A stretch of 47,606 nucleotides of DNA, taken from positions 1-47,606 of the IMG/VR virus record IMGVR_UViG_3300042731_005702. One strand, written 5' to 3'. The position numbers and the translations under genes are program-made. The DNA comes from a virus. Position 1 is the first letter of the stretch. Every line of letters starts with the position of its first letter. Below, piece by piece: positions 2,862-30,481 of the stretch. The notes below the pieces were generated by a model. It made no database searches, was not told the origin of the DNA, and saw only the letters and a list, made by a program, of their open reading frames with translations.

Positions 2862-2871
2862 TGAACGTTCA
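2862..2871 (+). promoter_or_regulatory. Dispersed motif copy, TGAACGTTCA
   Basis: Perfect 10-bp palindrome followed by GAATT, directly after the stop of the preceding gene and 33 nt upstream of the tailspike start. It is the only intergenic copy I found in the tail block. Confidence 0.6.
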
Positions 2872-2894
2872 GAATTCTGATAAGGATTAGATGA

Positions 2895-5800
2895 ATGACA
2901 CGAAAATCAAAAGCAGATCAACGGGAACCTAAAACCACGGTTGACACATCAAACCCTGTAGGTGCTACTCACCATTCTGGGGCCGGTTATTCTATAGGCT
3001 CGCGATGGATTAACACAACGACACAAAGGGAATATGTTTGTGTAGATGCCACAAATCCCGCTACATGGATTGATATGGGTGCGGCGTCTGCTACGTTTCT
3101 TGGGTTGTCGGATACGGTTAGCGGGTACGTAGGAAGCGGTGAAGGCTATTTGGTTGTTCAGAATGCCACCGATGATGGTTTAGAAATAGTAGAAAATAAC
3201 GCTGCGGCTGTGGGCTTAGGAAATGTTGCTAATTTGAAAAACAACACAGCCGCAGGAAGCCCCCAAACAACAGATGGGGCGAATGATGGTTACTCCATAG
3301 GGTCTAGGTGGTGGAACACAACATTAGACTCTGAATTCGTTTGTCTAGACCCGGATGATGCGGGTAGCACATGGATTGAAACAACTAGCGGCGGTAGTGG
3401 GGGTGCGTTTACTTCGTTATCAGATACGCCAGCTAATTATACCAATTATGAATATGGTATGGTGCGCGTGAATAGCGGAGCTAGTGCATTAGAGTTCCTA
3501 AATAATAAACCCGATGCGACTGTGAGACCCCTAGCTACGAATGATGTGGATGAATATTACAAGGCTGGGTCATTTTGGATTAACACCACGGACAACCATA
3601 TTTATTGTTGCACTGATAACACCAATGGAGCCGCCGTGTGGCGAAGGGTATCAACTCCTTTTTCAAATTACGCTGGTACGGTTGCGCCAGATTTAGATGA
3701 TGACATTGATGATGGTTACGAAGTGGGTTCTTTATGGATAGACACCGTTTTGGGCAAAACGTATATATGCTATGATCCCGATGGCGGGGAAGGCGCGGAA
3801 TGGACACAACTTGAAAATGCTGGTGGTTCTTCAGGCGCATCAACGTTTTTAGACCTAACAGATACCCCAGCCGGTCCCTACTCATCTTATTCTGGAAAAT
3901 ACGTAAGGGTTGAAACTACAGCACCGGATGAGCTGATATTTGATGATGCTATGAGCTGGGATAATAACGACTGGGCATCTAAAGCCGAGGAGATAAACCC
4001 GGATCCTACGGACTGGTTAATTTCGGAAACAAACGCAAGTGGTCTTAAGCAGAAAGTCCAGATGAAAAACCTGCCGCAAACAACGGCTTCGAGCAAGGGT
4101 TTATGCCCTCAGCTATCTGGTGTTTCTACTCAGTTTTTAAATGGTGCCGGTTCGTTTTCAGTACCAAGTGGTGGCGGCGGCTCTCTTGGCACGCGTTTAG
4201 TAACGGTGGATGATCCGGACGGGGGTGACACAGGGGATTATGCTACCATTAACGCCGCTGTTTCAGGTTTAGGTGGGGATGGCGGCACTATTTTATTAAG
4301 GGAAGGTGTTTATCCTATTAGTACAACTATTGTTATCTCGTCTGCGATACGAATTATTGGTGTACAAGAAAACGTTCAGATACAAAATAACACCTCTGGT
4401 TATGTTATTCAATACACTGCTGGGTGTGATGGCAGTTTAATGGAAAACCTTAAGTTTGTGGTTGGGACTAGGGATGATGCAATTTACATTTCTGGCGATA
4501 ATGTATCAGCAAGGCAATGCGTATTTAATGGTGTGAGCTTTTTTACTGGAAGTGAAAATATTGTTTTCGATAATTGCACGTTCCAGCATACAAGTGCTAG
4601 TGAAACGGATATTGTGGCTAGCGTTACGGGAACTAATCCTATCGTGACGTTTAGAGATTGCTACTTTTATGGTGCCGCTACTGAATGGCTATTACACATA
4701 AACGCCACGACTAGTGGTAACGATATAGGCCACGTGTTGGTGTCTGGTTGTAGATTTGAAAATAATAGTAACGCTGGCGGTGTTTATGTTGAGGAAGTTT
4801 ATAGTGCTGTTTTTCATGGGTGCGATTTTGTGAGTTTAATAAACCCCAATGTAACGTATAACAAACCGTTACTTTATGTGTATGGAACTAACGATATAAA
4901 GCAGTGTGTTATTCGAGATTGTTCTATAAGGATGGTGGATAACGCAGGGACATTTAATGCTAGTCTAGTTCGTATACATAATAATGGTGACGAGGAAATA
5001 CTTGTTGATGGTGTCACTATTGATTTAGATAATGCCGCTATGACTCATGCAAGCGCAAGTGTTGCACCAATTTTTATTGATGGGGTATGTATTCGCCTTA
5101 GAGGAATAATTCTAGAAAACGTGAAACTACCTAGCAGTACGGTTACCACTTTAGATTTTGGGGCTATTACTTTGGACCCTCAGATTCCTAACGCGCCCGC
5201 AGACTTTGATGGATCAATTCATATCTCAGATAGTTTTTTTAGAAAAATATCTGGAACAGCAGGAGATCATATAGATGCAAGTGTTATATGCTCTCCCTCG
5301 GCACTTACTGGTAAAGGTAATATTCGGATAACGAACTGCCATTTTGACGGACAAGATCAAACGGTGGAGCACTCCAGCAACTCAAATTATTTTATTAAAG
5401 TTGCTGGTACATCTACTGATGAATCATCATTAGAGGTTGCACATTGTTATTTCACAAAAGGTGCATGGTGCGGCTGTGTTGGCACTATAGACAAGGGGAC
5501 TATTATACGAGATTGCCAGGTTATGTTTAGGGATGAACCAGACGATTACCTTCAATTTGCTTTTGTTGCGTCTGGGTATTATGACGGAACGGCCCGGCGG
5601 AGCAGTTTTTGTAGCATAACAGGTAACCATATACAATGCCAAGATCCACGCAATGAACCAATTTGGGTTAGAGACTTTCATACTGCTATAATATCTAATA
5701 ACACTGTCTCAAATATTGGTGCCACGCTCTATTATGAAATAAGAGTAGACACCACAGATAAAGCAATTATTTCTGGAAACATATGCACAGGAACTATTCG

Positions 5801-5926: not shown

Positions 5927-7594
5927 ATGCCTACGTTCCATTATTCAATATTCGGTGAGTTCACTTATGGTGAACATCCATATGGTGGCTATTACCTTGA
6001 GGATGTACTTGCCGATTCATCCTTACTGGATATTTACAGGATGATTGTACTCGGTGTCAGGCAGATGGATGAGAATGGTGAGGGGTTACTTGAAAAAATA
6101 TGTAATGCGTTAGAGGTTGCATGGGAAAACTATATTTATAACAAAGCCACACCTCTGACAACACTTTATGAAATAGATAATATTGAAGAGAATTGGTTAC
6201 AATATATGAAACCTCTATTAGGTTTCACTCGGGATATTCCATTTACTTCTAGTAATAGTGAACTTCGTACAATACTAAATCATGCGATCCCGTATTGGAA
6301 TAATAAACCCTCTGAATATGGAGTCATTGATAGATCAATTAGGTTTTTAACAAATAAGAATTTTAGGGTGGGAAACTTTTTTGATTTCAGAATGCAAGTT
6401 GGTAGCACGATATTGGGTGATGAACTTGAAGACTTTGATCCCTGGATGATAGATTTCAGCAACCCATCAACCACGGGCGTCAATGGTGCTGTCACTGGTA
6501 ATAACACGTTTGACCTAAAGGACTTGTCTACGGGAACCTTTGACACGGCAGATGATTACAAGTTCTTAGTCATCATTGGGGATGAAAACAACCCCTCGAA
6601 TGAGGGCATTTACGAGATAGACACATTAACCGCAGGGGGAACGACTGGGGTGATAAAGAGTACATTCAGCGTTACTCCTTCAACTGTTTTCAGCTATAAA
6701 GTTTTGAGTTACTCCGATGAAATGCTAACAGAGGTGAGGTTAGTAGATAATGGCGTTGGTACGTTGCGATATATCAACTTATCGTCTTCTTTTAATTTGT
6801 ATGAGAAAGTGGTAGGCGCAACGTCTGGGGCCTCCGGGTATGTTGTGGAGGATGAGGACGGAATCTTAACGCTCAGAAATATCAAAGGGCGGTTTGTTAG
6901 TAACGAAACTCTTACCGGGTTATTGGGCGGTTCCGCAACCTCTAAAGGAACTTTATCTAACGTTTTAAACCGTTCAATTTTACGTTACATGATGAGTGAA
7001 AAAACTTCTAAGCCTATCGGGGAAAGAATTGACATTGTATACATTGATTTCTTAGAGCAGTTTTTGTTACCCGAGGATTTGAGTTTGTGGGATGATACAA
7101 ACGATGTAACAGTTCCTAGTCCAGGGGGGGCTGCATTAATTGCTACCGGGGGCTACCTGCAATATAAGCACCCATTTAATTGGTGGCGTAGTCAAGTTGT
7201 AATTGCAAAGTGGAACGCAACGTCTGCTAGCAGTATTCCAAAATGTCAATTTATGCTTATGCCAACCGCTCCTTCTTATTATGCAGTAACAATAAACTAC
7301 ACAACCAAGGTCGTGACTCTTTATTACATTACTACACTTATGGCGTCTATTACTCTTCCATATTTAAAACATGGAGTAAGTGATACGTTAAGAATAGAAG
7401 TTATTCGAACACCCACTGACGACACTGTTATAACAGTTAGAGTAAATAACGAAATTCAAATAGTGTATACTGATATAGGCGGTTTTGATAGTGGTGGAAT
7501 AGGGTTTACTACAGCAGGTGATTCAGTATCTTTAGAGCATGTGGAAGTTTTTACGCTACCAGTAGACGTTGATAGAATCGGGCCGAATCCCTAG
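5927..7594 (+). CDS. Baseplate/tail protein, gpI-like N-terminus plus lectin-like C-terminus
   Basis: A 555-residue protein. Residues ~25-150 follow the pattern of P2 gpI-type tail proteins: a short helix bundle, then 'YMKPLLGFTRDIPF' and a later S-E-Y-G-V-I-D segment, like the conserved L-P-x-L-A-x-x-x-x-x-x-x-W and K-G-T-x-x-x-I blocks of that family. The middle is beta-rich. The last ~180 residues (from 'LSLWDD') look like a concanavalin-type domain like those in the neighbouring genes. It would join the baseplate to the fibres. The gpI relationship is a pattern match, not an alignment. Confidence 0.65.
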   Translation: MPTFHYSIFGEFTYGEHPYGGYYLEDVLADSSLLDIYRMIVLGVRQMDENGEGLLEKICNALEVAWENYIYNKATPLTTLYEIDNIEENWLQYMKPLLGFTRDIPFTSSNSELRTILNHAIPYWNNKPSEYGVIDRSIRFLTNKNFRVGNFFDFRMQVGSTILGDELEDFDPWMIDFSNPSTTGVNGAVTGNNTFDLKDLSTGTFDTADDYKFLVIIGDENNPSNEGIYEIDTLTAGGTTGVIKSTFSVTPSTVFSYKVLSYSDEMLTEVRLVDNGVGTLRYINLSSSFNLYEKVVGATSGASGYVVEDEDGILTLRNIKGRFVSNETLTGLLGGSATSKGTLSNVLNRSILRYMMSEKTSKPIGERIDIVYIDFLEQFLLPEDLSLWDDTNDVTVPSPGGAALIATGGYLQYKHPFNWWRSQVVIAKWNATSASSIPKCQFMLMPTAPSYYAVTINYTTKVVTLYYITTLMASITLPYLKHGVSDTLRIEVIRTPTDDTVITVRVNNEIQIVYTDIGGFDSGGIGFTTAGDSVSLEHVEVFTLPVDVDRIGPNP

Positions 7595-10717: not shown

Positions 10718-11146
10718 ATGCCTTGGTGGGTGTTTGTTGCTGCAGGGTTTTTAATTGCTGTGACCATTATTTCTGTGGTCTTGATCGCCTATGACTATAT
10801 GGCTAAAAAGAATCTATTGCTATCAATGGATATTTTAGAGAACGAAAGAAAGCGTATAGAAAATGATCTAGAAGTGGAAAGGATTACCCGAAAGCAAATA
10901 GAAAAGGAATTCATAAGGCTTACTGAAAAGCACAAACAGATAAACAAATGGTACCTGAAACGTAAAGATGAAATAGAGGAAGACATTCGAGATGAGTACG
11001 AAAACATGGCTGAAGATCCTGCATTTCTTAGTGCTAAACTTGATAGCTTGCTCGGCATTCCAAGGGAAACTAAACGCCCAAGAAGAAAAGAAGACACTGC
11101 AAGACTTAGTAAAAGAAATAAGGCACCAGCAGGTGAAAAAAGGTGA
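10718..11146 (+). CDS. Membrane-anchored coiled-coil protein, i-spanin-like candidate
   Basis: A 142-residue protein whose ATG directly follows the previous TAA. Residues 3-25 form one hydrophobic transmembrane helix; residues ~35-95 are highly charged with heptad spacing, so a coiled coil is likely; the C-terminus is basic. An N-terminal anchor plus periplasmic coiled coil is the plan of an Rz-type inner-membrane spanin. A lipoprotein gene overlaps its 3' part in another frame, as Rz1 does in many phages. The lipoprotein itself looks like a one-piece spanin, so this protein may have a different job. Confidence 0.7.
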   Translation: MPWWVFVAAGFLIAVTIISVVLIAYDYMAKKNLLLSMDILENERKRIENDLEVERITRKQIEKEFIRLTEKHKQINKWYLKRKDEIEEDIRDEYENMAEDPAFLSAKLDSLLGIPRETKRPRRKEDTARLSKRNKAPAGEKR

Positions 11147-11501
11147 TCGAGTACCCTTTAACGGAGTTCTCCTTACCCCGGATGCTATGGCCACAATCAT
11201 CTCGAACTATGAAAAACAGATTAGAATGCTCATGCTGGAGCTCGAGAAAATAGAGGATGTTTCTATGGCTGAAATGGATAGCAACCAAGCGATCTGTAGA
11301 GTTCAGATACTTGAGTTTAAGACAAAATTGAAAACCTGTGTTGACGAGTCTAATAATCAACGAAAACTATTTTATGATGAATTAAAACAGTATAAAAAAA
11401 TTCATAGGTCACCGCCTTGGTATACCAACCCTTACCTCTCATTTATCGTTGGAGGTGTCGTTGTGGGGGGTATTTGCGTTGCTGTGGATTATGCTGAGTG
11501 A
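10992..11501 (+). CDS. Lipoprotein with C-terminal TM helix, u-spanin-like
   Basis: This 169-residue frame overlaps the previous gene by 155 bp in another frame, then continues through DNA not used by any other gene. The N-terminus has Lys at 4 and 8, a hydrophobic stretch and the lipobox L-I-A-C with Cys20, so it should be lipidated. A charged helical middle follows. Residues ~148-165 (start 'YLSFIVGGVVVGG') form a transmembrane segment. Lipobox plus C-terminal membrane helix is the architecture of unimolecular spanins such as T1 gp11, which join outer and inner membrane at lysis. No similarity search was possible, so the function is inference from architecture. Confidence 0.7.
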   Translation: MSTKTWLKILHFLVLNLIACSAFQGKLNAQEEKKTLQDLVKEIRHQQVKKGDRVPFNGVLLTPDAMATIISNYEKQIRMLMLELEKIEDVSMAEMDSNQAICRVQILEFKTKLKTCVDESNNQRKLFYDELKQYKKIHRSPPWYTNPYLSFIVGGVVVGGICVAVDYAE

Positions 11502-11505
11502 AAAC

Positions 11506-11778
11506 ATGGAAACAGCTATTGCGTCATTACTCTCAAAATTAATTGAGTATGGCCCCGGTTTTTTAGTAGCGGGGCTGTTCATGGCCATGTATTGGCTTGA
11601 AAGGAAGAAGAACGAGAGACTTGCAGAAAAGCTTTATGAGCTTGGTTTGCAGAGTTTAAAGTCTGACCTCGAACACACTAAGATGTACACCGCACTAGAG
11701 AAGGCGATTGAGACACTTGGTAAAACAATTTCTAATCTGGCGTTGGAATTATTGAAGGCACGAAATGAGAAAGACTAA
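11506..11778 (+). CDS. Small single-span membrane protein, possible holin
   Basis: I choose ATG 11506, 4 nt after the preceding stop, giving 90 residues. Upstream in-frame starts at 11491 (ATG) and 11449 (TTG) would add a second hydrophobic segment (V-S-L-W-G-V-F-A-L-L-W) and cannot be ruled out, since no Shine-Dalgarno sequence clearly decides. One transmembrane helix lies near residues 15-30 (FLVAGLFMAMYW), followed by a charged amphipathic helical tail with coiled-coil spacing. Size and plan fit small holins or a scaffold protein. Its 3' end overlaps the next gene by 14 bp. Confidence 0.65.
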   Translation: METAIASLLSKLIEYGPGFLVAGLFMAMYWLERKKNERLAEKLYELGLQSLKSDLEHTKMYTALEKAIETLGKTISNLALELLKARNEKD

Positions 11779-12118
11779 AAGCATTGACACATCAATCGGA
11801 TCACTACTTATTAAACTGGAATTTATCTCCGAATCAGAATTAATACACATGCTAGAAAAACAGAAGATGTATAAGAAAAGGGCTAGCGAGGAATTACTGA
11901 TAGGAAGGATTCTTGTTTCAGAGGGGGTGATCACCGAGGATCAGTTACAAGAGGCTATTGTTTTGCAGGATAGATTAAGGTGTAAAACGAAGTATGAAAA
12001 TTCAATGGCAATAGCCGAGCTTGCCATTCAATCTAAAAAGAGAACTCAAGAGAAAATAGTAGCCACAACTAAAAAAATAACTGATGAGTACCCTTCAATA
12101 GTTCCGAATGAAAAGTGA
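11765..12118 (+). CDS. Small MshEN / T2SSE-N-like protein
   Basis: The 117 residues contain two copies of a 24-residue pattern: I-G-x-x-L-(L/I)...(F/V)-I-(S/T)-E...L-x-x-x-(L/I)-x-x-Q. Gly12 to Gln33 and Gly47 to Gln68 are both 21 apart, with a period of 35. This matches the paired motif of MshEN domains (GspE/PilB N-terminal type), some of which bind cyclic di-GMP. The leading Arg of the classic motif is absent in both copies and copy 1 lacks the second Gly. The rest is a charged helix. Ligand binding is a hypothesis. The stop codon lies in a dispersed motif copy. Confidence 0.7.
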   Translation: MRKTKSIDTSIGSLLIKLEFISESELIHMLEKQKMYKKRASEELLIGRILVSEGVITEDQLQEAIVLQDRLRCKTKYENSMAIAELAIQSKKRTQEKIVATTKKITDEYPSIVPNEK

Positions 12119-12125
12119 ACGTTTA
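12116..12125 (+). promoter_or_regulatory. Dispersed motif copy, TGAACGTTTA
   Basis: Followed by GAAATA; its TGA is the stop codon of the MshEN-like gene. One of two copies before the helicase gene. Confidence 0.55.
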
Positions 12126-12183: not shown

Positions 12184-12193
12184 TGAACGTTCA
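12184..12193 (+). promoter_or_regulatory. Dispersed motif copy, TGAACGTTCA
   Basis: Perfect palindrome followed by AAAAACG, 16 nt upstream of a TTGACA box. Confidence 0.6.
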
Positions 12194-17095: not shown

Positions 17096-17165
17096 ACAGT
17101 AACACGATGTACTACACCTATTAAAAACCAACCAAAAAAAGTGCGTATATATAGTATCCAGTTTT

Positions 17166-17175
17166 TGAACGTTCA
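17166..17175 (-). promoter_or_regulatory. Dispersed motif copy, palindrome
   Basis: TGAACGTTCA whose A-rich flank (AAAAACTGG) is on the minus strand. The same 18 nt recur at 23100-23117. Confidence 0.6.
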
Positions 17176-17258
17176 TTTTTTGTAACTCTATACAACCATT
17201 AGATAATTCCCAAATGCTCTATTTGTAACTAGTTGAATATACTAGGTATACATGTTTT

Positions 17259-17268
17259 TGAACGTTCA
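17259..17268 (-). promoter_or_regulatory. Dispersed motif copy, palindrome
   Basis: TGAACGTTCA with the A-rich flank (AAAAAC) on the minus strand, in the middle of the control region. Confidence 0.6.
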
Positions 17269-17345
17269 TAAATTAAAATCAACTTTTTTTGAGTTTTTTT
17301 GTAGGAAATTTGTAACCACACGTTATCCTTACAAATAATTATTTC

Positions 17346-17355
17346 TGAACGTTCA
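17346..17355. promoter_or_regulatory. Dispersed motif copy, palindrome
   Basis: TGAACGTTCA ending 10 nt upstream of the TTGACA box, where an activator or an upstream operator could sit. Confidence 0.6.
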
Positions 17356-17365
17356 CATTTAGCTA

Positions 17366-17394
17366 TTGACATATCATCGTATATCAACTATTAT
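17366..17394 (+). promoter_or_regulatory. Sigma70-type promoter of the MoxR operon
   Basis: TTGACA (17366-17371), a 17-bp spacer and TATTAT (17389-17394); a second TATAAT overlaps at 17395. The start would be near 17401, about 20 nt before the ATG of the first gene, with GAGGAGAC as ribosome site. This is the best promoter in the window. Confidence 0.75.
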
Positions 17395-17423
17395 TATAAT
17401 ATAAGCAACGAGGAGACAAAAAG

Positions 17424-17834
17424 ATGAACAAGCTACAAACAAAAGACATTTTCAGTTACATAACAGCCGGTAAGGCGGTATTCACAATTCAAAACAAAAC
17501 GACGGGGGGTCGTTTCACGTTCAAGATGAAACGCCACCAAGAAAAACAAGACCTTTTTTATGTATTGCTACTAACTGGTAGTGATAATGACTCTGACTAC
17601 AGTTACATCGGTTTCATTCGCGGAACAATCTACTTACACGGCGGGAAAAAATCCGCTGTGAAAGACACATCGATATCTAACAAGGCATTTGCTTGGTTTT
17701 TCAACAAACTACAAACAGAGGAATTACCAGAGTGCGTTGAAGTGCATCACTCAGGAAATTGTGGAAGGTGTGGTCGCACGCTGACAACCCCAGAGAGCCT
17801 AAGAATCGGCCTTGGTCCTGTATGTGCAGGGTAG
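17424..17834 (+). CDS. DUF6011-like zinc protein
   Basis: A 136-residue protein whose C-terminus reads C-G-R-C-G-R-x-L-T-x-P-E-S then G-L-G-P-V-C-A-G, the signature of the DUF6011 zinc-binding domain found in many phage and plasmid proteins. The N-terminal ~100 residues are beta-rich and may bind a partner. It is the first gene after the 17366 promoter, with ribosome site GAGGAGAC. Function unknown in the family; an early regulatory or host-takeover role is only suggested by position. Confidence 0.8.
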   Translation: MNKLQTKDIFSYITAGKAVFTIQNKTTGGRFTFKMKRHQEKQDLFYVLLLTGSDNDSDYSYIGFIRGTIYLHGGKKSAVKDTSISNKAFAWFFNKLQTEELPECVEVHHSGNCGRCGRTLTTPESLRIGLGPVCAG

Positions 17835-18833: not shown

Positions 18834-19988
18834 ATGCCTAAAAAGAAAAAAGCAAAAGTTGATATAAAAACCAAGTTACAAACGCTCAGAAATGAGTTAA
18901 AGGCAAATTTTATCGAAAGGGGCGAGGAAATAGACGGAATACTAATAGCCCTGCTAGCCCAGGAACATGTGTTGTTCCTCGGCCCCCCGGGGGTCGCTAA
19001 AACTCTACTCACCAGCACTATTGCAGGTGCCATTGAACTTTCAGAATACTTTGAATGGCTCATGTCAAAATTTTCTGTCCCAGAGGAGTTGTTTGGCAGT
19101 TTTTCTCTTAAATCTTTAAAGGAAGATAGACACGAGCGAATACTTGACGGAAAACTACCCGAGGCGAGTATTGCTTTCCTTGACGAGATATTCAAGGCCA
19201 ATAGTTCAATCCTCAATTCCCTTCTCACATTAATTAATGAGCGGAAATTTTACAATGGTGGGTCGGCAGTTGATTGCCCCCTTGAAACAATGGTGGGGGC
19301 TAGTAACGAATTACCAGAATCAAAAGAACTGGATGCACTTTACGACAGATTTCTTTTGCGTTATTGGGTGGGTTATATCCAGGACATGGGAAAGTTTAAA
19401 GACTTGCTCATGTCTAGCCCCCCATCGGTTACTACCTCGATCACACTAGATGAGCTGCATGAAATGCAGGAAGGGGCATGTAACGTTGATATCTCAGAAA
19501 AAACAATAGACCTTATAATTCAACTTAAACTTTCTTTGGAGAGGGAAGGTTTTACTAGTAGTGACCGCAGGTGGAAAAAGGCTCTAGATATCATTGCAGC
19601 GCACGCGTATCTCAACGGGCGGGTTGAAGCAATTGAAGACGACTTACTAGTGTTGCAGCACGTTTTGTGGGATGACCCAAAAGATAAGTCAACATTGAGT
19701 TGGTTGATTTCTAAAATATGCACACCCGCTATTTATGCCGCTCAAGAAATATTAGCCTCCGTAAAGGAAGCATACCTCAAAATTAATTTCTTGAGGGAAG
19801 TTCCTGACAGTGAGGTTTCAGGGGCGTTGAATGAAGCTATTCAACTGAATAGCCAAATCAAAAAAGCCATTACTAAAATCAAACGGGTGGCTAATGGGAA
19901 CATGAATAATGTCCAAGATTCAATGGATGAACTAGTTGACATGCAGGAAAAAGTCTCTAAATATGCCATGAAACTGTCAGGATTATAA
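18834..19988 (+). CDS. MoxR-family AAA+ ATPase (RavA-like)
   Basis: A 384-residue AAA+ protein with a basic start (M-P-K-K-K-K-A), Walker A G-P-P-G-V-A-K-T (50-57), Walker B A-F-L-D-E-I-F (~114-120), a sensor-1-like region after 'MVGASNELPES', and a helical lid. MoxR proteins act as chaperone-like motors that load metals or remodel partners together with VWA-domain proteins. A VWA gene follows two genes later, so a RavA-ViaA-like pair is likely. The target in a phage is unknown. The start lies 1 nt after the previous stop. Confidence 0.9.
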   Translation: MPKKKKAKVDIKTKLQTLRNELKANFIERGEEIDGILIALLAQEHVLFLGPPGVAKTLLTSTIAGAIELSEYFEWLMSKFSVPEELFGSFSLKSLKEDRHERILDGKLPEASIAFLDEIFKANSSILNSLLTLINERKFYNGGSAVDCPLETMVGASNELPESKELDALYDRFLLRYWVGYIQDMGKFKDLLMSSPPSVTTSITLDELHEMQEGACNVDISEKTIDLIIQLKLSLEREGFTSSDRRWKKALDIIAAHAYLNGRVEAIEDDLLVLQHVLWDDPKDKSTLSWLISKICTPAIYAAQEILASVKEAYLKINFLREVPDSEVSGALNEAIQLNSQIKKAITKIKRVANGNMNNVQDSMDELVDMQEKVSKYAMKLSGL

Positions 19989-19991
19989 TTC

Positions 19992-20001
19992 TGAACGTTT
20001 A
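19992..20001 (+). promoter_or_regulatory. Dispersed motif copy, TGAACGTTTA
   Basis: Followed by GAAACG, just after the MoxR stop and 28 nt upstream of the next start. Confidence 0.6.
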
Positions 20002-20019
20002 GAAACGATAAGGAGCAGT

Positions 20020-21018
20020 ATGATGAAAAGACAACGAAATCAAAAAACTCGGCAACGGGTTAAGCAGGCATTATCACGTGGAAAAGACCACTTAGGCACA
20101 ATTGTGATGTGGTCAATTGAAGGGGTTGAAGTGGAGAGGGCAGAGCTGGAAAGCCTATATGGGCAGTATGGGCTGGGGGCCGACTACCTACCACCTGAGA
20201 TCAAGCCTGTGGCTGCTTTCAGAAAAGCTATTAAAAAGGCATCTAGTGGAAGCCCAGACCACTTGTTCCGCAGTATATCTAAATCAGGTAATGAAATAAT
20301 AATAGGTATCGTGCGGGAAGACGTGGATCGTCACCACAAAGATTTAGGTTATGACGTTGAGTGTAAAGTAACTTTACATGCAAAGGACCCTGACAATGCC
20401 TATGTGGACGTCACACCACGAACCCACAATCAAGGGAGGGTTGTAGCGGCTGAATTTAGAACGCTAAGAAACAGCTATACGTCACGCGATATCTACAGTA
20501 TGCTACGGATAAATGTAACTGAGAAAATGTTTGGCATCCCCCTCCGGGATACAGGTGGGGTCTATTTCGTATCGCCAGAATTCAGTAGTGACCTCAAAAA
20601 ACATAAAGACGTTATTCGGGAGCTGGGGACGTCGGAATTAATTTTGCTGCAAGTGAATAACGACCCTGGTAGCAGGGAGGATATGAGCAAGCAGGCAAAG
20701 AAAAGCCTGGAGGCTGAGCTACAGGATATCGCAGAGGAGCTTGAAACGTTCAAAGCAGAGAAAAAAGATGTGTCAGGGTCGATGGTCGAACTACGGTTAG
20801 ATAGGTTCAAGGAGATTCAGGAAAAAGCGGATATGTACGCAGGGATTCTTGATCTTAAATCGACTGAGATTAAACAGAGTCTTAGAGATGCAAAAAGTAT
20901 CTTACAAAAGCTATTTGAAGATACCGAGCAGCGGTATGAGGAGCAAGCCATAGAAGAGCTAGAGAATAAAAAACGCTCTGCTAGAAGAGTAGCAAAACGC
21001 ATTAGGAAAACGGTTTAG
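20020..21018 (+). CDS. Uncharacterised protein between MoxR and VWA
   Basis: A 332-residue protein with AAGGAG before the ATG; a second ATG directly follows. Residues ~20-200 look globular, mixed alpha/beta, with a central segment G-I-V-R-E-D-V-D-R-H-H-K. Residues ~225-330 are charged and helical with likely coiled coil, ending in a basic tail (R-R-V-A-K-R-I-R-K). Its fixed place between MoxR and VWA genes suggests it is the third part of the same complex, perhaps an adaptor. That role is inferred from order only. Confidence 0.75.
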   Translation: MMKRQRNQKTRQRVKQALSRGKDHLGTIVMWSIEGVEVERAELESLYGQYGLGADYLPPEIKPVAAFRKAIKKASSGSPDHLFRSISKSGNEIIIGIVREDVDRHHKDLGYDVECKVTLHAKDPDNAYVDVTPRTHNQGRVVAAEFRTLRNSYTSRDIYSMLRINVTEKMFGIPLRDTGGVYFVSPEFSSDLKKHKDVIRELGTSELILLQVNNDPGSREDMSKQAKKSLEAELQDIAEELETFKAEKKDVSGSMVELRLDRFKEIQEKADMYAGILDLKSTEIKQSLRDAKSILQKLFEDTEQRYEEQAIEELENKKRSARRVAKRIRKTV

Positions 21019-21028
21019 GAGTAGAACA

Positions 21029-22477
21029 ATGAACCCCATGGATAAACAATTGGCATACGATGTCACAAGGTGGCAAAGGTTTCTGTACGAGGATGAAAAA
21101 TTCCACAACAAGAATCTTCAAGATACTGAGCTAGCGGGAATTCAAAACGTAAGTGGTGACTATGGGGTATTTCAAAAAGAGGTATTCGCCCGCCTCTATT
21201 CTAACGATGACCTACCTAAAGTAGAGTCCCCCGTTGACTGGGCAGAAAAACTCCATAACCAATTAGATGAATCAAGAGAATTCGCCTCAATCAGCTCCAG
21301 ATGTAAAGGGGATGAATTGTGGTCAGGGATTGCCTGCTCAACGTTATCAAAATCGTTATCCGCTACAATGCAGGATAGCAACGCCAAAGCAATAGAAAAC
21401 GCCAAGAGGGACGTTGAGGAAGCACAGAATATTGTGGATGGACTAGAGGAACTAAAAGCACGCGGTGCAAACGTGGGTAGGAGGTTAGAAAAGGCAAATG
21501 CGAAGCTAGTTAGGGCGAAAGAAAACTTGAATAGACTGGATAGTAAAATGAACGTTCCAGCTATCCAGAGAGCCATTAGAAAAGCCTGTGACACAATAAA
21601 TGTAGAGCTGAACGAAACGGAACGATTGATTGACTCTATGGTATATGATTCAAGCGAGGGTAGTAGCGTGGCAGGTAGTAGCGGAAACGTAAAAAGAAAA
21701 AGAGAATTGGCCAGTAAACTACAAGCTAACCCAAAGCTGAGGGAGGTTGCAAAACTGGCTGGTAGACTTCGCAGAATAGCGGCCAAAAAACAACGCTCAA
21801 AAACAGAAAACACATGCAATGAAATAAGTGATATTCAGCAGGGGGACTCAATTGACAGGTTACTACCAAGTGAGTTAATCGGCTTAGTAGAGCCATTATA
21901 CGAAATCATGTTCTACCGCAATTTACTTGAAAAGCAATTACTGCAATATGAATTAAAGGGAAAAGAGATTGAAGGAAAAGGACCGATCATTATCTGTATT
22001 GATGAATCAGTTTCCATGAGGGGTCAAAGGGACGTGTGGAGTAAAGCGGTAGCGTTAGCACTTTTAGAAATTGCCAGGAAACAAAAAAGAGCATTTTCTA
22101 CCGTTCACTTTTCCTCCTCAGTAGATAAAATACACGTGGTAGGAGTAAAAGATGAAGTCACCCCTGACACCATTGATAAGATAGTAAATAACTTCGCAGG
22201 AGGGGGGACAAGTTACGAAGCACCATTGGGGCAGGTAATGAAAATGGTTCCAAAGAAAAAGGCAGACGTTATTTTTATAACTGATGGGGCTTGTGAGGTG
22301 AGTAACGAGTTTCTGGATAGGTGGAACGCTGCAAAGAAGGAATTGGAGTTCAGCTTATATTCAATAGCAATCAGTTGCTTGAACACGGCTACTTTAAACA
22401 CATTGAGTGATCAAGTATTTAATCTAGACGACATGCTTCAAAGCGAGGAAATGGAAGACTCGCTATTTTCAATTTAA
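21029..22477 (+). CDS. VWA-domain protein (ViaA/CoxE-like)
   Basis: A 482-residue protein. Residues ~1-310 are helical, with a coiled coil at ~115-175. The C-terminal VWA domain keeps a full MIDAS metal site: C-I-D-E-S-V-S-M (D-x-S-x-S from Asp325), Thr in G-G-G-T-S-Y-E (~395) and Asp in F-I-T-D-G-A (~418). Proteins of this plan work with MoxR AAA+ ATPases. It starts 10 nt after the preceding gene with TAGGAG as ribosome site. A partner of the ATPase at 18834 is the likely role; the substrate is unknown. Confidence 0.88.
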   Translation: MNPMDKQLAYDVTRWQRFLYEDEKFHNKNLQDTELAGIQNVSGDYGVFQKEVFARLYSNDDLPKVESPVDWAEKLHNQLDESREFASISSRCKGDELWSGIACSTLSKSLSATMQDSNAKAIENAKRDVEEAQNIVDGLEELKARGANVGRRLEKANAKLVRAKENLNRLDSKMNVPAIQRAIRKACDTINVELNETERLIDSMVYDSSEGSSVAGSSGNVKRKRELASKLQANPKLREVAKLAGRLRRIAAKKQRSKTENTCNEISDIQQGDSIDRLLPSELIGLVEPLYEIMFYRNLLEKQLLQYELKGKEIEGKGPIIICIDESVSMRGQRDVWSKAVALALLEIARKQKRAFSTVHFSSSVDKIHVVGVKDEVTPDTIDKIVNNFAGGGTSYEAPLGQVMKMVPKKKADVIFITDGACEVSNEFLDRWNAAKKELEFSLYSIAISCLNTATLNTLSDQVFNLDDMLQSEEMEDSLFSI

Positions 22478-23092: not shown

Positions 23093-23341
23093 TTAATGAC
23101 CAGTTTTTGAACGTTCATAATTGATTAAACAGAAGTTGTTCATTTCCTCCACCTCACCTGACTCCACTGCTTTTTTGTATTCATTTACCAAGTAAAACTC
23201 GATGGCTTTCGTTAACCAGAGGGCTAGGTCCATACAGAACATGTTGTCAACAAATATCACGTTGTGTTTTTCTACGTAGTACCTGATCTCATCAACTAAC
23301 AACTGCTCTATCTCACGCATAGCATCAAGCTCTCTCAACAT
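23093..23341 (-). CDS. Small minus-strand protein, unknown
   Basis: An 82-residue protein, the only convincing minus-strand gene here. The ATG at 23341 is preceded by AAGGAG at 8-nt spacing and by an extended -10 promoter about 55 nt further up. The product is helical and acidic (E-I-E-Q-L-L-V-D-E-I-R-Y-Y), with two hydrophobic helices but no clear membrane span. Its last codons read through a dispersed motif copy (Y-E-R-S-K). Being alone and divergent from the next gene, it could be an early regulator; there is no sequence proof. Confidence 0.72.
   Translation of the reverse strand: MLRELDAMREIEQLLVDEIRYYVEKHNVIFVDNMFCMDLALWLTKAIEFYLVNEYKKAVESGEVEEMNNFCLINYERSKTGH
23108..23117 (-). promoter_or_regulatory. 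Dispersed motif copy inside minus-strand gene end
   Basis: TGAACGTTCA with AAAAACTGG following on the minus strand, so it is oriented with the minus-strand gene. It overlaps that gene's last codons. Confidence 0.55.
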
Positions 23342-23411: not shown

Positions 23412-23477
23412 CGATTGGCAGTTGAGATAGGGGAAAGAATCATGTATAACGTGACACCCCCTTAAATCCGCGTAAAA

Positions 23478-23641: not shown

Positions 23642-24664
23642 ATGAACTCCTTATATATAAGCACCAAAAAACGATTTGTCACCCCTAAAATTAGACATTT
23701 CGTACCTTCTAACCCTGATTTAGATCTCTACATCCCTACAGTTTACGAACATTACAGCAGAATTACGGTAAACGTGCGGGTTAAAAAAAGTTCTCGGTAC
23801 GGGTTATCAGGATTACTACGCAGTAAATGCAGTAAGAGCTATTCTACAGAATCCAGGATGTTCTTTCCTGTGGGTCAAACGGCCAGGTTACTCGGTATTA
23901 GGTACTACATGGGTATTGTGGGGTTAGTAGTACGTCCAATTGATAGCGGGTTTGCATTTGATGCAATGGTGGCACCTGGAAAAGGGGTAAGGGATTTATT
24001 AATTGAAAAACTGAATACGTTAATTCCTGATAACCAGGGAATTGAGTCGCAGGATACGTGTGATAAGTTTGAATCCTTTATCTGGATTAACTCATCAGAT
24101 GTTCCACTAATCAAAAAAGCATTATCTCCTCACCTTGTTTCTGATCGTTCAAAAATAAGAGGTAATCAACCCAATTACAAATTTGTGATCAACTGCAAAA
24201 TAAATCTTGAGAATGACGTTTGTATACCAGGTAAGCTTGCTGCTTATCATCATGACAGCATGCCTGAGCACATTGACAAACTAGAATTGAAAGTAGGACA
24301 TAGTGGTGATTTCCAACCGATCAAAAACGTAAAGACTAAGTGCGCAGGATGGATGATTCATTTAGCAGATTCTTTGGGTCTTAAAAAACCTGATATCAAA
24401 AAGAAGTATTTCTTATATTCCAAAGAAAGGCACTGGAAAGGGGAACCAATTGATATCCGTTTTGGTAAAAACATGAAACTCGCTTGGTTCAGATTAAAAC
24501 AGGGACCTGTTTCTGTTCCTGCATTTAATGCATACTGTAAACTATGTCATGAGGATATTGATTTTAACCGTTCAAAATTGGTTTTTAGGGAACTAAATAA
24601 ACTAGGAATTGCTCACACTGCTAAAAAACGTTTTTTGACTTTCAAAGAGTCTCCTCTTTTCTAA
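23642..24664 (+). CDS. Unrecognised 340-aa protein in isolated locus
   Basis: I choose ATG 23642 because the in-frame ATG at 23624 lies inside a strong hairpin arm. The product is basic, mixed alpha/beta, with a Cys/His-containing segment near the end (Y-C-K-L-C-H-E-D-I-D-F). No membrane segment or known catalytic motif is seen. It is flanked by a palindrome upstream and by a weak terminator and 17-bp tandem repeats downstream, a setting that resembles an initiator protein with its repeats; that is speculation. It stands alone as a transcription unit. Confidence 0.75.
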   Translation: MNSLYISTKKRFVTPKIRHFVPSNPDLDLYIPTVYEHYSRITVNVRVKKSSRYGLSGLLRSKCSKSYSTESRMFFPVGQTARLLGIRYYMGIVGLVVRPIDSGFAFDAMVAPGKGVRDLLIEKLNTLIPDNQGIESQDTCDKFESFIWINSSDVPLIKKALSPHLVSDRSKIRGNQPNYKFVINCKINLENDVCIPGKLAAYHHDSMPEHIDKLELKVGHSGDFQPIKNVKTKCAGWMIHLADSLGLKKPDIKKKYFLYSKERHWKGEPIDIRFGKNMKLAWFRLKQGPVSVPAFNAYCKLCHEDIDFNRSKLVFRELNKLGIAHTAKKRFLTFKESPLF

Positions 24665-25128: not shown

Positions 25129-25138
25129 TGAACGTTAA
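25129..25138 (+). promoter_or_regulatory. Dispersed motif copy, TGAACGTTAA
   Basis: Followed by GAAACG, 54 nt before a small membrane-protein frame. Confidence 0.55.
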
Positions 25139-25323: not shown

Positions 25324-25360
25324 CCACTTTTTACGATATTTACCACCTTACATCTATTCA

Positions 25361-25376
25361 CCCCCTTTAAATCGCC
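25361..25376. repeat. 16-nt dispersed repeat, copy 1
   Basis: CCCCCTTTAAATCGCC. Exact copy at 25564; a related form CCCCCTTAAATCCGC lies at 23457. Confidence 0.6.
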
Positions 25377-25487
25377 TTGTAGTGGCTCACAATTAGCTTC
25401 GCCTAACAGTCAGAAGGGGGGGGATATAGGGTTAGACAGAATTTTAGAACCATGGTACAACCTGCAGGAAACGTTATTAGTTAATTC

Positions 25488-25497
25488 TGAACGTTCA
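25488..25497 (+). promoter_or_regulatory. Dispersed motif copy, TGAACGTTCA
   Basis: Perfect palindrome followed by AAAAAACAC in a region without a firm gene. Confidence 0.55.
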
Positions 25498-25563
25498 AAA
25501 AACACATCTTATCAGCAGTGATAACGAACAGCAGGGATTATGGAAAGAAGAGAGTATTATACG

Positions 25564-25579
25564 CCCCCTTTAAATCGCC
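25564..25579. repeat. 16-nt dispersed repeat, copy 2
   Basis: CCCCCTTTAAATCGCC, identical to 25361-25376, 203 bp further on. Confidence 0.6.
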
Positions 25580-25838
25580 TGTGAGCCCCACAGTCGTCAA
25601 ATAGCCCTCGTTTACCACAATTCCCGTGGTTATCTACCCCTCAGACCTTTCCCACCTCTTAAATCGCGTTCTCGTAAGCCTAATTAGTCACAACTAACAG
25701 CAGATATCTTAAAATACCTGTATAATCTCTATACATTTGTAATACAACTTGACATACAATAGGAAACTATGTAAATACACCCTTGTGAGTAAGGTGGTTG
25801 TAAGGCAAGGGAGGGATAAAAAGGTAAATATAGAAAAA

Positions 25839-25848
25839 TGAACGTTAA
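25839..25848 (+). promoter_or_regulatory. Dispersed motif copy, TGAACGTTAA
   Basis: Followed by GAAAGG, 32 nt upstream of the start I favour for the next gene. It also overlaps an alternative ATG at 25838. Confidence 0.6.
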
Positions 25849-26319: not shown

Positions 26320-26329
26320 TGAACGTTAA
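26320..26329 (+). promoter_or_regulatory. Dispersed motif copy, TGAACGTTAA
   Basis: Followed by GAAAAATAAG and 30 nt upstream of the next ATG. Confidence 0.6.
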
Positions 26330-26574: not shown

Positions 26575-26584
26575 TGAACGTTTA
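26575..26584 (+). promoter_or_regulatory. Dispersed motif copy, TGAACGTTTA
   Basis: Followed by AAAATAGG and 27 nt upstream of the LexA-like gene. Confidence 0.6.
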
Positions 26585-26601: not shown

Positions 26602-26835
26602 ATGGTCATTCAGAGTCATTTCGATTTGACAGAAGAGCAAAACGAGATGCTAGAATTTATTATTCATTTTTTTACTGAATATTCATGCAGTCCAACCGTG
26701 ACTGAGATAGGTAAACACTTTTCACTTTCAAATCAAAACGTGAATGAGAGGTTAGCGGTATTGATTAGAAAGAAGTATCTTAGGCGCTGTAAGGGGAGAA
26801 ATTATCTTGCAAGAATATTAAAAAATGAACGTTAA
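26602..26835 (+). CDS. LexA N-terminal-like winged-helix protein
   Basis: The 77 residues follow the LexA DNA-binding domain: L-T-E-E-Q-N-E-M-L-E-F-I, then S-P-T-V-T-E-I-G-K-H-F, a recognition helix around S-N-Q-N-V-N-E-R-L, and a wing. The C-terminal protease domain is absent, so it cannot self-cleave like LexA. It probably binds DNA as a small repressor or activator. Its last codons (N-E-R-stop) are written by a dispersed motif copy. Because LexA half-sites contain GAAC, it is a candidate reader of the motif; binding is untested. Confidence 0.8.
   Translation: MVIQSHFDLTEEQNEMLEFIIHFFTEYSCSPTVTEIGKHFSLSNQNVNERLAVLIRKKYLRRCKGRNYLARILKNER
26826..26835 (+). promoter_or_regulatory. Dispersed motif copy, TGAACGTTAA
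   Basis: Its TAA is the stop codon of the LexA-like gene (GAA CGT TAA). Followed by GAAATAG and 31 nt upstream of the next ATG. Confidence 0.6.
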
Positions 26836-26856: not shown

Positions 26857-27135
26857 ATGGGAAAAAGATTTAGAAGTCAGAGGGCTATAGAAAAAGCAGT
26901 TGATGAGTCATTGGAACCAGGGGGTAACTGGGTTTCGGTTAAATTACTTCGTGAGAAATTAGGTTTTGATGAGATTGACGAAGACGAAGACGAGGAGGAG
27001 GAAGACGAGGAGGAAATGGAACCAGGACTAAAAAGGGATACACTTGGTTTGTTATTGAGTAACGTTACTCGAATAGCGGATGCTATGGAGGTTATGAGTA
27101 AATATTATCATCGATTAAAGCCGCCTAAGAAATAG
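26857..27135 (+). CDS. 92-aa protein with acidic middle
   Basis: A helical N-terminal half (R-A-I-E-K-A-V-D-E-S) leads to ~25 residues of nearly pure Asp/Glu at 38-62, then a helix and a basic end. The acidic stretch resembles the linkers in the helicase and SSB of this phage. The ribosome site is weak (GATGGGAT). Function unknown; DNA mimicry or a histone-like partner is a guess. Confidence 0.65.
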   Translation: MGKRFRSQRAIEKAVDESLEPGGNWVSVKLLREKLGFDEIDEDEDEEEEDEEEMEPGLKRDTLGLLLSNVTRIADAMEVMSKYYHRLKPPKK

Positions 27136-27215
27136 AGGACGCCCGGCGAGCGGTTTCAGAGGCGGTTGAGCAGATATTTACTAAAAACATTAAGCCTCTA
27201 GCGCCACCAGAAAAA
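27136..27215 (+). other. Gene-less gap with an open frame
   Basis: An open frame without start codon ends at TGA 27216. Reading from 27132 it would give ~28 residues (E-D-A-R-R-A-V-S-E-A-V-E-Q) and looks protein-like. It could be a frameshifted tail of the preceding gene or a remnant. Confidence 0.3.
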
Positions 27216-27225
27216 TGAACGTTAA
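27216..27225 (+). promoter_or_regulatory. Dispersed motif copy, TGAACGTTAA
   Basis: Followed by GAAATAAAGG and 29 nt upstream of the next ATG. Confidence 0.6.
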
Positions 27226-27571: not shown

Positions 27572-27865
27572 ATGCCTAAACTATTGACACAGCCAAATAC
27601 TTCTGGTAGTTTACATTCGTATATCACTCAGCAAAAAATAGGAATGAGAGTGGCAATCATGTTCAAAAGGGACGTGTTTAAGCAAATACTATTACAAAAT
27701 GACCTATCACAGGTTGAGTTCTGCAATAGGGCGGGGGTTAGTCTATCAACACTTAAACGGGTGTTAGCAAATCAGCCTGTAACCAGCCTTTATTTTCAGA
27801 GGATCGTGAACGCATATAGACGATTGGATAGATATGGGATGGAAGCAATGACAATAAAAAAGTGA
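27572..27865 (+). CDS. XRE/Cro-like HTH protein
   Basis: The frame starts at ATG 27572 (97 residues), but no ribosome site lies there. ATG 27644 or 27659 gives 73 or 68 residues and leaves the whole domain intact. The helix-turn-helix reads L-S-Q-V-E-F-C-N-R-A-G-V-S-L-S-T-L-K-R-V-L, followed by a helical end, as in Cro/CI proteins. It is a probable DNA-binding regulator. It lies in the middle of the motif array; its stop TGA is part of a motif copy. Confidence 0.75.
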   Translation: MPKLLTQPNTSGSLHSYITQQKIGMRVAIMFKRDVFKQILLQNDLSQVEFCNRAGVSLSTLKRVLANQPVTSLYFQRIVNAYRRLDRYGMEAMTIKK

Positions 27866-27872
27866 ACGTTCA
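27863..27872 (+). promoter_or_regulatory. Dispersed motif copy, TGAACGTTCA
   Basis: TGA is the stop of the XRE-like gene. Followed by AAAAAACAGG and 30 nt upstream of the next ATG. Confidence 0.6.
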
Positions 27873-27892: not shown

Positions 27893-28177
27893 ATGAACAC
27901 TACACCAAGAGACGTGATTAGTGAAATGGTATTTGGGAGTGAGACGAGAGCAGGTGGGTTGAAAATGGTCCCTAGCGATTTATTACCGCCTGGTTTAATA
28001 TGCTTACAGGGGGCTTATGGTCAGCTTGTTTTTGCTCATGTGGGTATAGGGATCTTGAAGTGCAAGTATTGCCATGAATGTACGTTTAGGTTTTACGCAG
28101 ATTCCAATGGGGGGACGTTGCGTTTGATTTGTGAGTCATGCGGTAAAGATTTCATTAATCGTGAATATAAATATTGA
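27893..28177 (+). CDS. 94-aa zinc-ribbon protein
   Basis: CAGGAGAG precedes ATG. The C-terminal half has C-K-Y-C-H-E-C and C-E-S-C, a four-Cys zinc ribbon, and the N-terminal half is beta-rich. Possible nucleic-acid or transcription-factor-like accessory; the family is not recognised. The stop TGA is the start of the next motif copy. Confidence 0.7.
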   Translation: MNTTPRDVISEMVFGSETRAGGLKMVPSDLLPPGLICLQGAYGQLVFAHVGIGILKCKYCHECTFRFYADSNGGTLRLICESCGKDFINREYKY

Positions 28178-28184
28178 ACGTTCA
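28175..28184 (+). promoter_or_regulatory. Dispersed motif copy, TGAACGTTCA
   Basis: TGA is the stop of the zinc-ribbon gene. Followed by TAAATG and 39 nt upstream of the start I choose for the next gene. Last copy of the dense array. Confidence 0.6.
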
Positions 28185-28774: not shown

Positions 28775-28783
28775 GGAGAAGCA

Positions 28784-29494
28784 ATGATTGGAATTGAAAT
28801 TATAAAGCCACACGTAAAGCTAATTACTCCTGAAGAATGGTTTGAAAAGATACCTTGGTTGATTGAGTATTGCGGGAGGTTGAGCCATAAGTCAGAAGAC
28901 AGAATGAAAGATGGTAGCAGTGATAAGTTTATTAGGAAAGTGGCTGGAAAACTTGGGCATGAAAGTATTATTGAGCATATGGGAATAACGTATCATGTTT
29001 ATTGCGATAGAACATGTAGCCATCAATTAGTCAGGCACCGAGTAGCCGCTTCTTATACGCAGGAGTCACAAAGGTATTGTGATTATTGTAAGGGGGAGGA
29101 TTATTACCTGCCGGTTATATTGCCGCCGACGATTGGTGATATACCACACGGCACAATTTTAAATCAAGAGTGTATTAGGTTTAATACTAGCACGTACACA
29201 AAAGACAACCCAGCTTTGCGGGCATGGACAAAGAACTGTCTCTACAGTTATGAGGACTATCGATTTTTACGTGATAAGGGGATACCCCCAGAGGATGCAC
29301 GGTCAGTTTTACCTGGGGCCACAAAAACAGAGGTCGCCGTGACGTACAATTTAAGAATGTGGCGTCATGTTTTTAAAATGAGAGCATTGAATCCAAAGGC
29401 ACAGTGGCAAGTTAGAGGCGTTTTTAAAATGCTCTTAGCAGACTTATCAAAACGTCTACCGATGTTTTTTGATGACTTGGTTATGGAAGAATGA
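28784..29494 (+). CDS. thyX: Flavin-dependent thymidylate synthase ThyX
   Basis: A 236-residue ThyX-type enzyme that makes dTMP from dUMP using FAD and folate. The signature is R84-H-R-V-A-A-S-Y-T-Q-E-S-Q-R-Y, one residue longer than the usual RHR-x7-S by my count, since eight residues separate RHR from Ser95. Other family marks are G-H-E-S-I-I-E-H near 60 and the R-S-V-L-P-G-A segment near 180. It raises dTTP for phage DNA, which fits the uracil-DNA glycosylase next door. It overlaps the next gene by 4 bp (ATGA). Confidence 0.92.
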   Translation: MIGIEIIKPHVKLITPEEWFEKIPWLIEYCGRLSHKSEDRMKDGSSDKFIRKVAGKLGHESIIEHMGITYHVYCDRTCSHQLVRHRVAASYTQESQRYCDYCKGEDYYLPVILPPTIGDIPHGTILNQECIRFNTSTYTKDNPALRAWTKNCLYSYEDYRFLRDKGIPPEDARSVLPGATKTEVAVTYNLRMWRHVFKMRALNPKAQWQVRGVFKMLLADLSKRLPMFFDDLVMEE

Positions 29495-30123
29495 AACTTG
29501 TTGAAGATTTAAATAGAATGCTTAAAGAAAAGTATGTAGAGGTTCAATCAGATTTATTTATGGAGTCCGGTGCAAATGCGAGTGGACTGGAATCAGAGCT
29601 GCAAGATAAACTCAAAAAAATGCAGCAAATGATAAAAGATTCACCAAGGAAAATGATGGAAAAAATACTCACTATAAACGACTGTGACACAGACCTGCTT
29701 CAGTGCTTAATTCTAACAGACAACGTAGAGCAGTTTGTCGAAACCCATCGCACCGAGCTGGCTCTGCTTTTGGCACAACTAGTACTTTTAAAATACGGTA
29801 AGCCAAAAAAGCCAAAAGAAGTCAGTCAATGGGATGAGGCATTGGACTCTAAGATAGGAGCGAATATGATAACGAAACAAAACGTGATAGATTTGTTTTT
29901 GACATTTGAAACACAAAGTGCGAATCACTTTGAAGCACAGCTCTATCGTTTAATTGCAAAAGCAGACACAAATAACAGGGCACGGTTGCTACTGGGGTTT
30001 TTGAATCAAGTGCAGACTTATCTTGCTTGGTACGAGACGCCAAGTCCTAAAGAATTCTATGATGTGTATTTGACCGAGCAGGAACAGCGGGACTTGAAAA
30101 ATGGAAAAGTGGTTGTGCCATGA
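29491..30123 (+). CDS. 210-aa helical protein, unknown
   Basis: Translationally coupled to ThyX by an ATGA overlap. Mostly helical and charged: a coiled-coil-like N-terminus (L-Q-D-K-L-K-K-M-Q-Q-M), a hydrophobic helix (L-A-L-L-L-A-Q-L-V-L-L) at ~90-100, and a C-terminal helix bundle. No catalytic motif. Its link to ThyX could be functional but is only positional. Confidence 0.72.
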   Translation: MKLVEDLNRMLKEKYVEVQSDLFMESGANASGLESELQDKLKKMQQMIKDSPRKMMEKILTINDCDTDLLQCLILTDNVEQFVETHRTELALLLAQLVLLKYGKPKKPKEVSQWDEALDSKIGANMITKQNVIDLFLTFETQSANHFEAQLYRLIAKADTNNRARLLLGFLNQVQTYLAWYETPSPKEFYDVYLTEQEQRDLKNGKVVVP

Positions 30124-30481
30124 TTTTTGAACGTTTAAAATTCCGTAGTTTATCATCCTTCTTTAGAACTAATGTGGTTGATTTATAAGTAATAGGGGTT
30201 AATGTTGTTAGTTTAGCCTACTATTAGTTAGTTAACACTATGTTTTCTAAATTGAAAAAAAGTAGGAAAAAATAGTTGATCCTTTTCGAGAGTCCATGTT
30301 AACTAGTTAATCGGAAGTTTGAAAAGCACGTTGAAGCACGCGACTCAATTTTCCATGAAAATTTAATAGAATCGCACCTTATGGTGACGTACCTTCATCC
30401 AACCTACTCTGTCTCCTCAGGTCGGAGTGGATTTATTCAACGTGCATGGCTGGGGGTACGTTGCCACCATTTTTTGGGTAA
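30124..30481. other. Non-coding region before the replication block
   Basis: About 358 nt, AT-rich in the first half with TTAGTT and GTTAAC repeats, then a small CACC-TTAT-GGTG hairpin near 30375 and a more GC-rich stretch. I find no firm promoter, only TTGAAA at 30252 without a good -10. It probably holds the control of the polymerase operon. Confidence 0.5.
30128..30137 (+). promoter_or_regulatory. Dispersed motif copy, TGAACGTTTA
   Basis: Just after the preceding stop; followed by AAATTCC. The next gene is about 350 nt away, unlike the other copies. Confidence 0.5.

Follow-up and report, generated by a model that had tools for sequence, protein, structure and literature searches.

Dispersed, mostly symmetric DNA sites at gene boundaries, in leader regions and within genes of an uncultured phage genome fragment

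The 47,606 nucleotides (nt) of the IMG/VR virus record IMGVR_UViG_3300042731_005702 that were analysed here (positions 1 to 47,606, in the following the window) contain about 36 copies of a DNA element with the core TGAACGTTHA, 19 of them strong and 17 weaker and located within genes. The element is very likely a dispersed double-stranded DNA site that is read by a protein, probably a dimeric one. As to its function, we rather favour a repression of transcription, in which the sites would act as operators in leader regions and as roadblocks at gene boundaries.

Results

An initial annotation of the window had listed 18 sites, and all 18 copies of TGAACGTTHA were recovered on the + strand at identical coordinates. 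Nine of them read TGAACGTTCA, which is a perfect palindrome, five read TGAACGTTAA and four TGAACGTTTA. When the motif was counted on both strands of the window and compared with dinucleotide-shuffled sequence, as had been proposed, 28 strand-wise matches were found, 18 of them on the + strand, against 0.37 expected and 4 in the richest shuffle. In line with this count, TGAACGTT was the most over-represented 8-mer of the window relative to a second-order model. The reverse variant TAAACGTTCA at 35504-35513 (+), which lies at the end of an SSB-like gene and 27 nt 5' of the start codon at 35531, was absent from the list and was added to the 18 copies to give the strong set of 19. A literature search for TGAACGTTCA found no relevant paper by title or abstract.

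The alignment of the 19 strong copies showed that the conservation is confined to one compact block, with nothing notable farther out. From left to right, the block consists of four mostly A/T positions, one free position, TGAACGTTHA, another free position and three A/T positions that are mostly A. This gives a mostly symmetric unit of about 20 bp, for which all sites together yield the consensus AAWWnTGAACGTTHARAAAY. On either side, only A or T occurs at the three inner arm positions, in a mirror-image arrangement; judged by sequence, this is how an operator read by a symmetric protein would look. The A-rich tail that had been described is indeed present and the right arm (AAA) is stricter than the left one (WWWW), but it is not a purely one-sided feature, since both flanks are A/T-restricted and half of the copies are perfect palindromes. 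Position 9 is degenerate, and the non-palindromic copies combine a perfect left half with a weaker right half. Around the 19 aligned copies no -10/-35 signal was found at a fixed distance, and no RNA structure was detected at the motif (z 0.39 and 0.43).

A matrix was built from the 19 strong copies and used at a threshold of at least 13 bits. It found 17 further loci, every one of them in a gene and distant from the start codon. Column-permuted matrices gave 0.39 expected loci (at most 3 in 200 permutations), and synonymous-codon shuffles that kept every protein and the codon usage gave 1.02 (at most 4 in 100). With the same matrix, 191 kb of DNA from other phages with a comparable G+C content gave a single hit. 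Independently of the matrix arms, all six arm positions were A/T in 10 of 22 one-mismatch cores outside the matrix training set, where 0.93 were expected. Within genes of the left and middle parts of the window, weaker sites are located at 6866-6875 (-), 6967-6976 (-), 20458-20467 (+), 22098-22107 (-), 24142-24151 (-) and 24565-24574 (-). Two lie in the DNA polymerase gene, at 31405-31414 (+) and 31731-31740 (+), one in an exonuclease gene at 36253-36262 (+), one in a UvsX/RecA-like gene at 37577-37586 (-), one in an SbcD-like gene at 38609-38618 (+), two in an SbcC-like gene at 39861-39870 (+) and 40455-40464 (+) and one in a ParB_N-methyltransferase gene at 41820-41829 (-). The last three genic sites are found at 45187-45196 (+), 46132-46141 (-) and 46350-46359 (+). 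These copies occupy different reading frames, many of them encoding E-R-S/L codons, and have neither a strand preference nor a tie to start codons. We conclude from this that the element belongs to the DNA as such and not to the starts. Since the copies within genes exceed the synonymous null and carry the A/T flanks, a start-associated, translation or promoter element is unlikely.

It is very improbable, in particular, that the motif acts in the mRNA, as a start-associated sequence upstream of the Shine-Dalgarno sequence. Nine copies do stand 27-33 nt before start codons; this reading is weakened, however, by the roughly 17 copies within genes, by further copies in leaders of 100-350 nt, by the position upstream of the Shine-Dalgarno sequence and by the lack of RNA structure at the motif. 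The start-associated sequences of mycobacteriophages lie 3-7 bp from the starts and contain AGGAG (PMC3203893).

Palindromes that are dispersed within and between genes could also be centromere-like sites for partition or for organising the nucleoid, bound by a ParB- or Noc-like or another architectural protein, and a ParB_N-methyltransferase fusion is encoded at 41320. This protein is, however, fused to a methyltransferase, and the strong copies are concentrated at gene boundaries in one orientation. ParA (PF13614) was absent from the window and from its 95-kb relative described below, with all 14 controls positive, although both records may be incomplete. We regard a partition function as unlikely.

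Although 92% of the window is occupied by genes, 16 of the 19 strong copies do not lie entirely in coding sequence. They are found between genes, in the gap from the stop codon to the Shine-Dalgarno sequence, or in long leader regions. Most boundary copies overlap the stop codon of the preceding gene or follow it directly, and the space that remains is just sufficient for the Shine-Dalgarno sequence. Gaps between genes that are free of the motif are mostly shorter than 15 nt. The copy TGAACGTTCA at 2862-2871 (+) is located in the gap 2859-2895, 33 nt before a start. The copy TGAACGTTTA at 12116-12125 (+) provides with its TGA the stop codon of the open reading frame (ORF) 11765-12118, and the copy at 19992-20001 (+) precedes the start at 20020 by 28 nt. 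The small-gene region holds the copies at 25839-25848 (+), 32 nt before the start at 25871, at 26320-26329 (+), 30 nt before 26350, and at 26575-26584 (+), 27 nt before the winged helix-turn-helix gene at 26602. The TAA (26833-26835) of the copy at 26826-26835 (+) is the stop codon of this same gene, and the next start at 26857 follows after 31 nt. Further copies are those at 27216-27225 (+), 29 nt before 27245, and two palindromes. The first, at 27863-27872 (+), supplies the TGA that ends the Xre-like gene 27572-27865 and lies 30 nt before 27893; the second, at 28175-28184 (+), supplies the TGA that ends the ORF 27893-28177 and lies 39 nt before 28214. The copy at 30128-30137 (+) begins a gap of 358 nt, 5 nt past the stop codon of the ORF 29491-30123. 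In the 3' end of the minus-strand ORF 23093-23341, a palindromic copy is found at 23108-23117 (-). As a separate observation at the 27216 copy, its TGA also ends the -1 frame continuation of the preceding gene 26857-27135; the -1 frame is protein-like at 27124-27218, which suggests a frameshift or a gene remnant.

These measurements bear out the distances of the initial annotation for its eight start-proximal copies (33, 28, 32, 30, 27, 31, 29 and 30 nt) and for the 28175 copy, as well as the four stop codons built from the motif; the copy at 35504 becomes the ninth within 27-33 nt. A fixed distance to the start thus applies to the gene-boundary class and not to the weaker copies within genes. 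The spacing can be explained by packing, because the site would take up what lies between the stop codon of the preceding gene and the Shine-Dalgarno sequence.

Long leaders contain the other strong copies. The helicase gene at 12322 is preceded by a leader of 203 nt with a palindrome at 12184-12193 (+). Three palindromes are located in the 328-nt gap 17095-17424 with their tails toward the - strand, at 17166-17175 (-), 17259-17268 (-) and 17346-17355 (-). The third of them ends 10 bp upstream of a sigma-70-like promoter match at 17366-17394 (11/12). The long gap that precedes the small-gene region is shared by a copy at 25129-25138 (+) and a palindromic one at 25488-25497 (+). Perfect palindromes make up 5 of the 6 long-leader copies and 3 of the 12 gene-boundary copies (Fisher 0.043), a preference for leaders that is suggestive only.

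The orientation separates the two classes of copies. All 12 boundary copies point along transcription, compared to 8 of the 17 copies within genes (Fisher 0.003). The earlier observation that the tail follows transcription therefore stands for the gene boundaries, but the three copies from 17166 to 17346 oppose the downstream gene by their best-scoring orientation. This bears on the proposal that each copy is the core of a single-element phage promoter, read by a phage RNA polymerase or by the host polymerase with a phage factor, so that transcripts would begin at the motif with leaders of about 20 nt. The boundary copies at 27-33 nt before the starts, all directed with transcription, and the tandem copies in leader regions would be expected of such promoters. 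The perfect dyad symmetry of 9 of the 18 copies, however, gives no direction, the 17 copies within genes lie on both strands without preference, the copies at 30128 and 23108 do not precede a start, and the three palindromes at 17.2-17.3 kb point against the gene downstream of them. A T7-type RNA polymerase (PF00940) was not found in the window, but the search control was silent and this point is weak. Promoters are an unlikely explanation, hardly ahead of partition sites.

The window is syntenic with the 95-kb contig G001, with protein identities of 32-67%. G001 has one TGAACGTT and no site of the TGAACGTTHA type, and in the shorter relatives TGAACGTT occurs once at most. No relative that was found carries the motif, for which the initial annotation had proposed a look in related phages. 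G001 lacks counterparts of the small genes at 25.8-28.8 kb. That copies separate the small genes at 25.8-28.2 kb would fit recombination boundaries at which small gene cassettes are shuffled. This reading is weakened, however, by the copies in leader regions and in conserved replication genes, by the end of the conservation at the arms after about 20 bp and by the symmetry of the site with its A/T rule. No family of swapped cassettes was found, and we give recombination as little credit as an mRNA element.

Two other repeats were observed in G001. The first is the palindrome TGTATATACA at 43438-44012 (L033 3438-4012) and also at 22301 and 22516. Its cluster spans about 600 bp before leftward genes and is probably an operator array of its own. 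No dispersed weaker copies of it were found above its null, which gives no support for one system shared with the window. The second is an RNA-hairpin-like element, TAGCTTATCG-N5-CGATAAGCTA, with six copies at 4863, 21600, 29719, 48160, 57492 and 82546 (L031-L035), several of them at gene boundaries just upstream of the Shine-Dalgarno sequence. A compensatory change of a pair is seen in the copy at 48160. The relative thus has a gene-boundary element different from that of the window.

Viral contigs were scanned for the motif with its tail or with a Shine-Dalgarno sequence, and mostly single copies were found in the stretches fetched. Among the 58 stretches found by a scan for double copies were arrays of TGAACGTTCA in L056, L084, L086 and L097. 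These are local repeats of one region in contigs that share no proteins with the window, and they were not used as support. In L056, an unrelated phage contig, ten TGAACGTTCA palindromes occupy 570 bp (10980-11541) directly after an Xre-like gene. A scan for double copies at gene-sized distance found nothing.

Two proteins encoded in the small-gene region are candidates for the binding of the sites, neither of them proven. The first, of 77 amino acids (26602-26835, +), is a LexA-like winged-helix protein with a Pfam match of 1.7e-9 to the LexA DNA-binding domain. It also matches LexA structures by sequence, and its own structure model was poor. Its gene has one site 27 nt upstream of the start and another one at the stop codon. 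The second, of 97 amino acids (27572-27865, +), has a lambda-repressor/Xre-like helix-turn-helix (HTH) after a beta hairpin. Its model reached a pLDDT (predicted local distance difference test) of 72 and matched C proteins and HipB at E 0.02 and weaker; a site is located at the stop codon of the gene. For the 26602 protein, no homologues were found in viral contigs and phage hits appeared only at E about 1e-3, and for the 27572 protein no homologues were found in phages. A link by co-occurrence of repressor and site was therefore unattainable. Among the window proteins scanned there was no L5-type two-domain repressor, with part of the genome probably missing, and among the window hits no phiC31-like repressor family, again for a genome that is probably incomplete. 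The actual binding protein may be encoded in the missing part.

LexA boxes of Gram-positive bacteria have the half-site GAAC and a 4-nt spacer. The same half-site is present here and would fit a host transcription factor whose sites have built up in the phage, perhaps to bring phage genes under host control or to titrate the factor. The 4-nt spacer, however, is absent, and about 36 copies in a 47.6-kb fragment are, in our judgement, a high load for a factor of the host. We consider this explanation improbable.

Other features of the window were noted in passing. The DNA polymerase (30482-34099) has an insert of about 315 residues (about 690-1004) that is absent from the relative. It matches regions of phage ribonucleotide reductase and thymidylate synthase families and is probably an intein. 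Three to four copies of the short repeat CCCCCTTTAAATCGCC are present, in the gene-poor region 25355-25669 and at 23455. At 18834-22477, an ATPase gene (MoxR-like by our reading), a DUF6744 gene and a VWA-domain gene follow each other, an order that is conserved in the relative.

Discussion

Our results suggest that a DNA-binding protein recognises the motif. This protein is most likely of the HTH type, encoded by the phage, and would bind as a symmetric dimer. In the long leaders at 12.1, 17.1-17.4 and 25.1-25.5 kb, the sites may act as operators on promoters. In the gaps between stop and start codons, the bound protein would block the passing RNA polymerase. This would keep the genes downstream silent, in particular the cluster of small genes at 25-28 kb, and may serve lysogenic silencing, superinfection immunity or the shut-off of early genes in lytic growth.

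Several points weigh against this interpretation. No binding protein is demonstrated, and the proteins at 26602 and 27572 remain candidates. The relatives, at 35-67% protein identity, lack the motif and therefore a conservation across relatives cannot be shown. Taken as a whole, sigma-70-like matches are no more frequent in the region than expected by chance. Some of the orientation at the boundaries could stem from the TGA stop codon on the left and the A-rich sequence before the Shine-Dalgarno sequence on the right. Neither an integrase nor a serine recombinase/resolvase was found in the window or in G001, and both records may be incomplete. With ParA also missing from both, a temperate life or lysogenic state is therefore not supported. 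An early-gene shut-off during lytic growth is just as possible as immunity.

To our knowledge, well-studied examples of genome-wide repressor sites with a block of elongation come only from phages of actinobacteria. The start-associated sequences (SAS) and extended start-associated sequences (ESAS) of cluster K lie upstream of many non-structural genes, mostly in one orientation and sometimes with the preceding stop codon included (PMC3203893). The sites of the window share these features with the SAS, whereas the SAS contain the Shine-Dalgarno sequence and lie 3-7 bp from the starts, and the present sites are found 27-39 nt away, upstream of the Shine-Dalgarno sequence, and also within genes. 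The operators of mycobacteriophage BPs are, like the present sites, short palindromes at several loci, and they are bound by a small phage repressor (PMC4557955). BPs differs in having five loci and a full operator of two half sites with a variable spacer. In SPbeta, the repeated element SPBRE is present in several intergenic regions of one phage genome, like the element described here, and is read by the master repressor MrpR (PMC10516654). It differs as a 15-bp motif derived from nine ChAP-seq (chromatin affinity precipitation and sequencing) peaks and bound by a recombinase-fold repressor, and the parts of that paper considered here give no placement rule for stop/start gaps.

The repressor sites of phiC31 are inverted repeats in intergenic regions. 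They are the closest kind, with many such sites dispersed in the intergenic regions of a phage genome, but the sequence differs here, copies also occur within genes and no relationship to phiC31 was found. Together, phiC31 and L5 are described with 18-30 dispersed repressor sites (PMC4557955). Phages of the L5 type have 20-30 dispersed, oriented sites at promoters and in short intergenic gaps; these stoperators of 13-14 bp lack dyad symmetry and are bound by a monomer (PMC9283540; PMC6550527). Among the comparisons offered by the initial annotation, stoperators were the best one. In both cases the sites are dispersed, occupy short gaps, lie mostly outside promoters and are oriented with transcription; the present ones also lie in leaders, and their orientation holds at the boundaries and not within genes. 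The L5 sites, however, are asymmetric 13-mers for a monomer with two DNA-binding domains, while the present ones have a symmetric core with A/T arms. Because of this difference, they are not members of the cluster A stoperators.

It is possible, though doubtful, that a stoperator-like silencing with a polar block of elongation arose here independently of that of the actinophages. A small dimeric HTH protein would then occupy the whole genome and read a symmetric site, with the boundary copies in one orientation and weaker copies extending into coding DNA. If true, such a version in an unrelated uncultured phage would suggest that the strategy arose more than once, and, with half of the copies palindromic and half not, one could examine whether a polar block requires an asymmetric site. 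The sites found within genes while the protein sequence was held fixed show how selection for a DNA-level site can be detected in genes. Taken together, the element is best explained as a case of genome-wide silencing sites, which are known but rare; new are its sequence, its occurrence in an unrelated phage and the 17 copies within genes.

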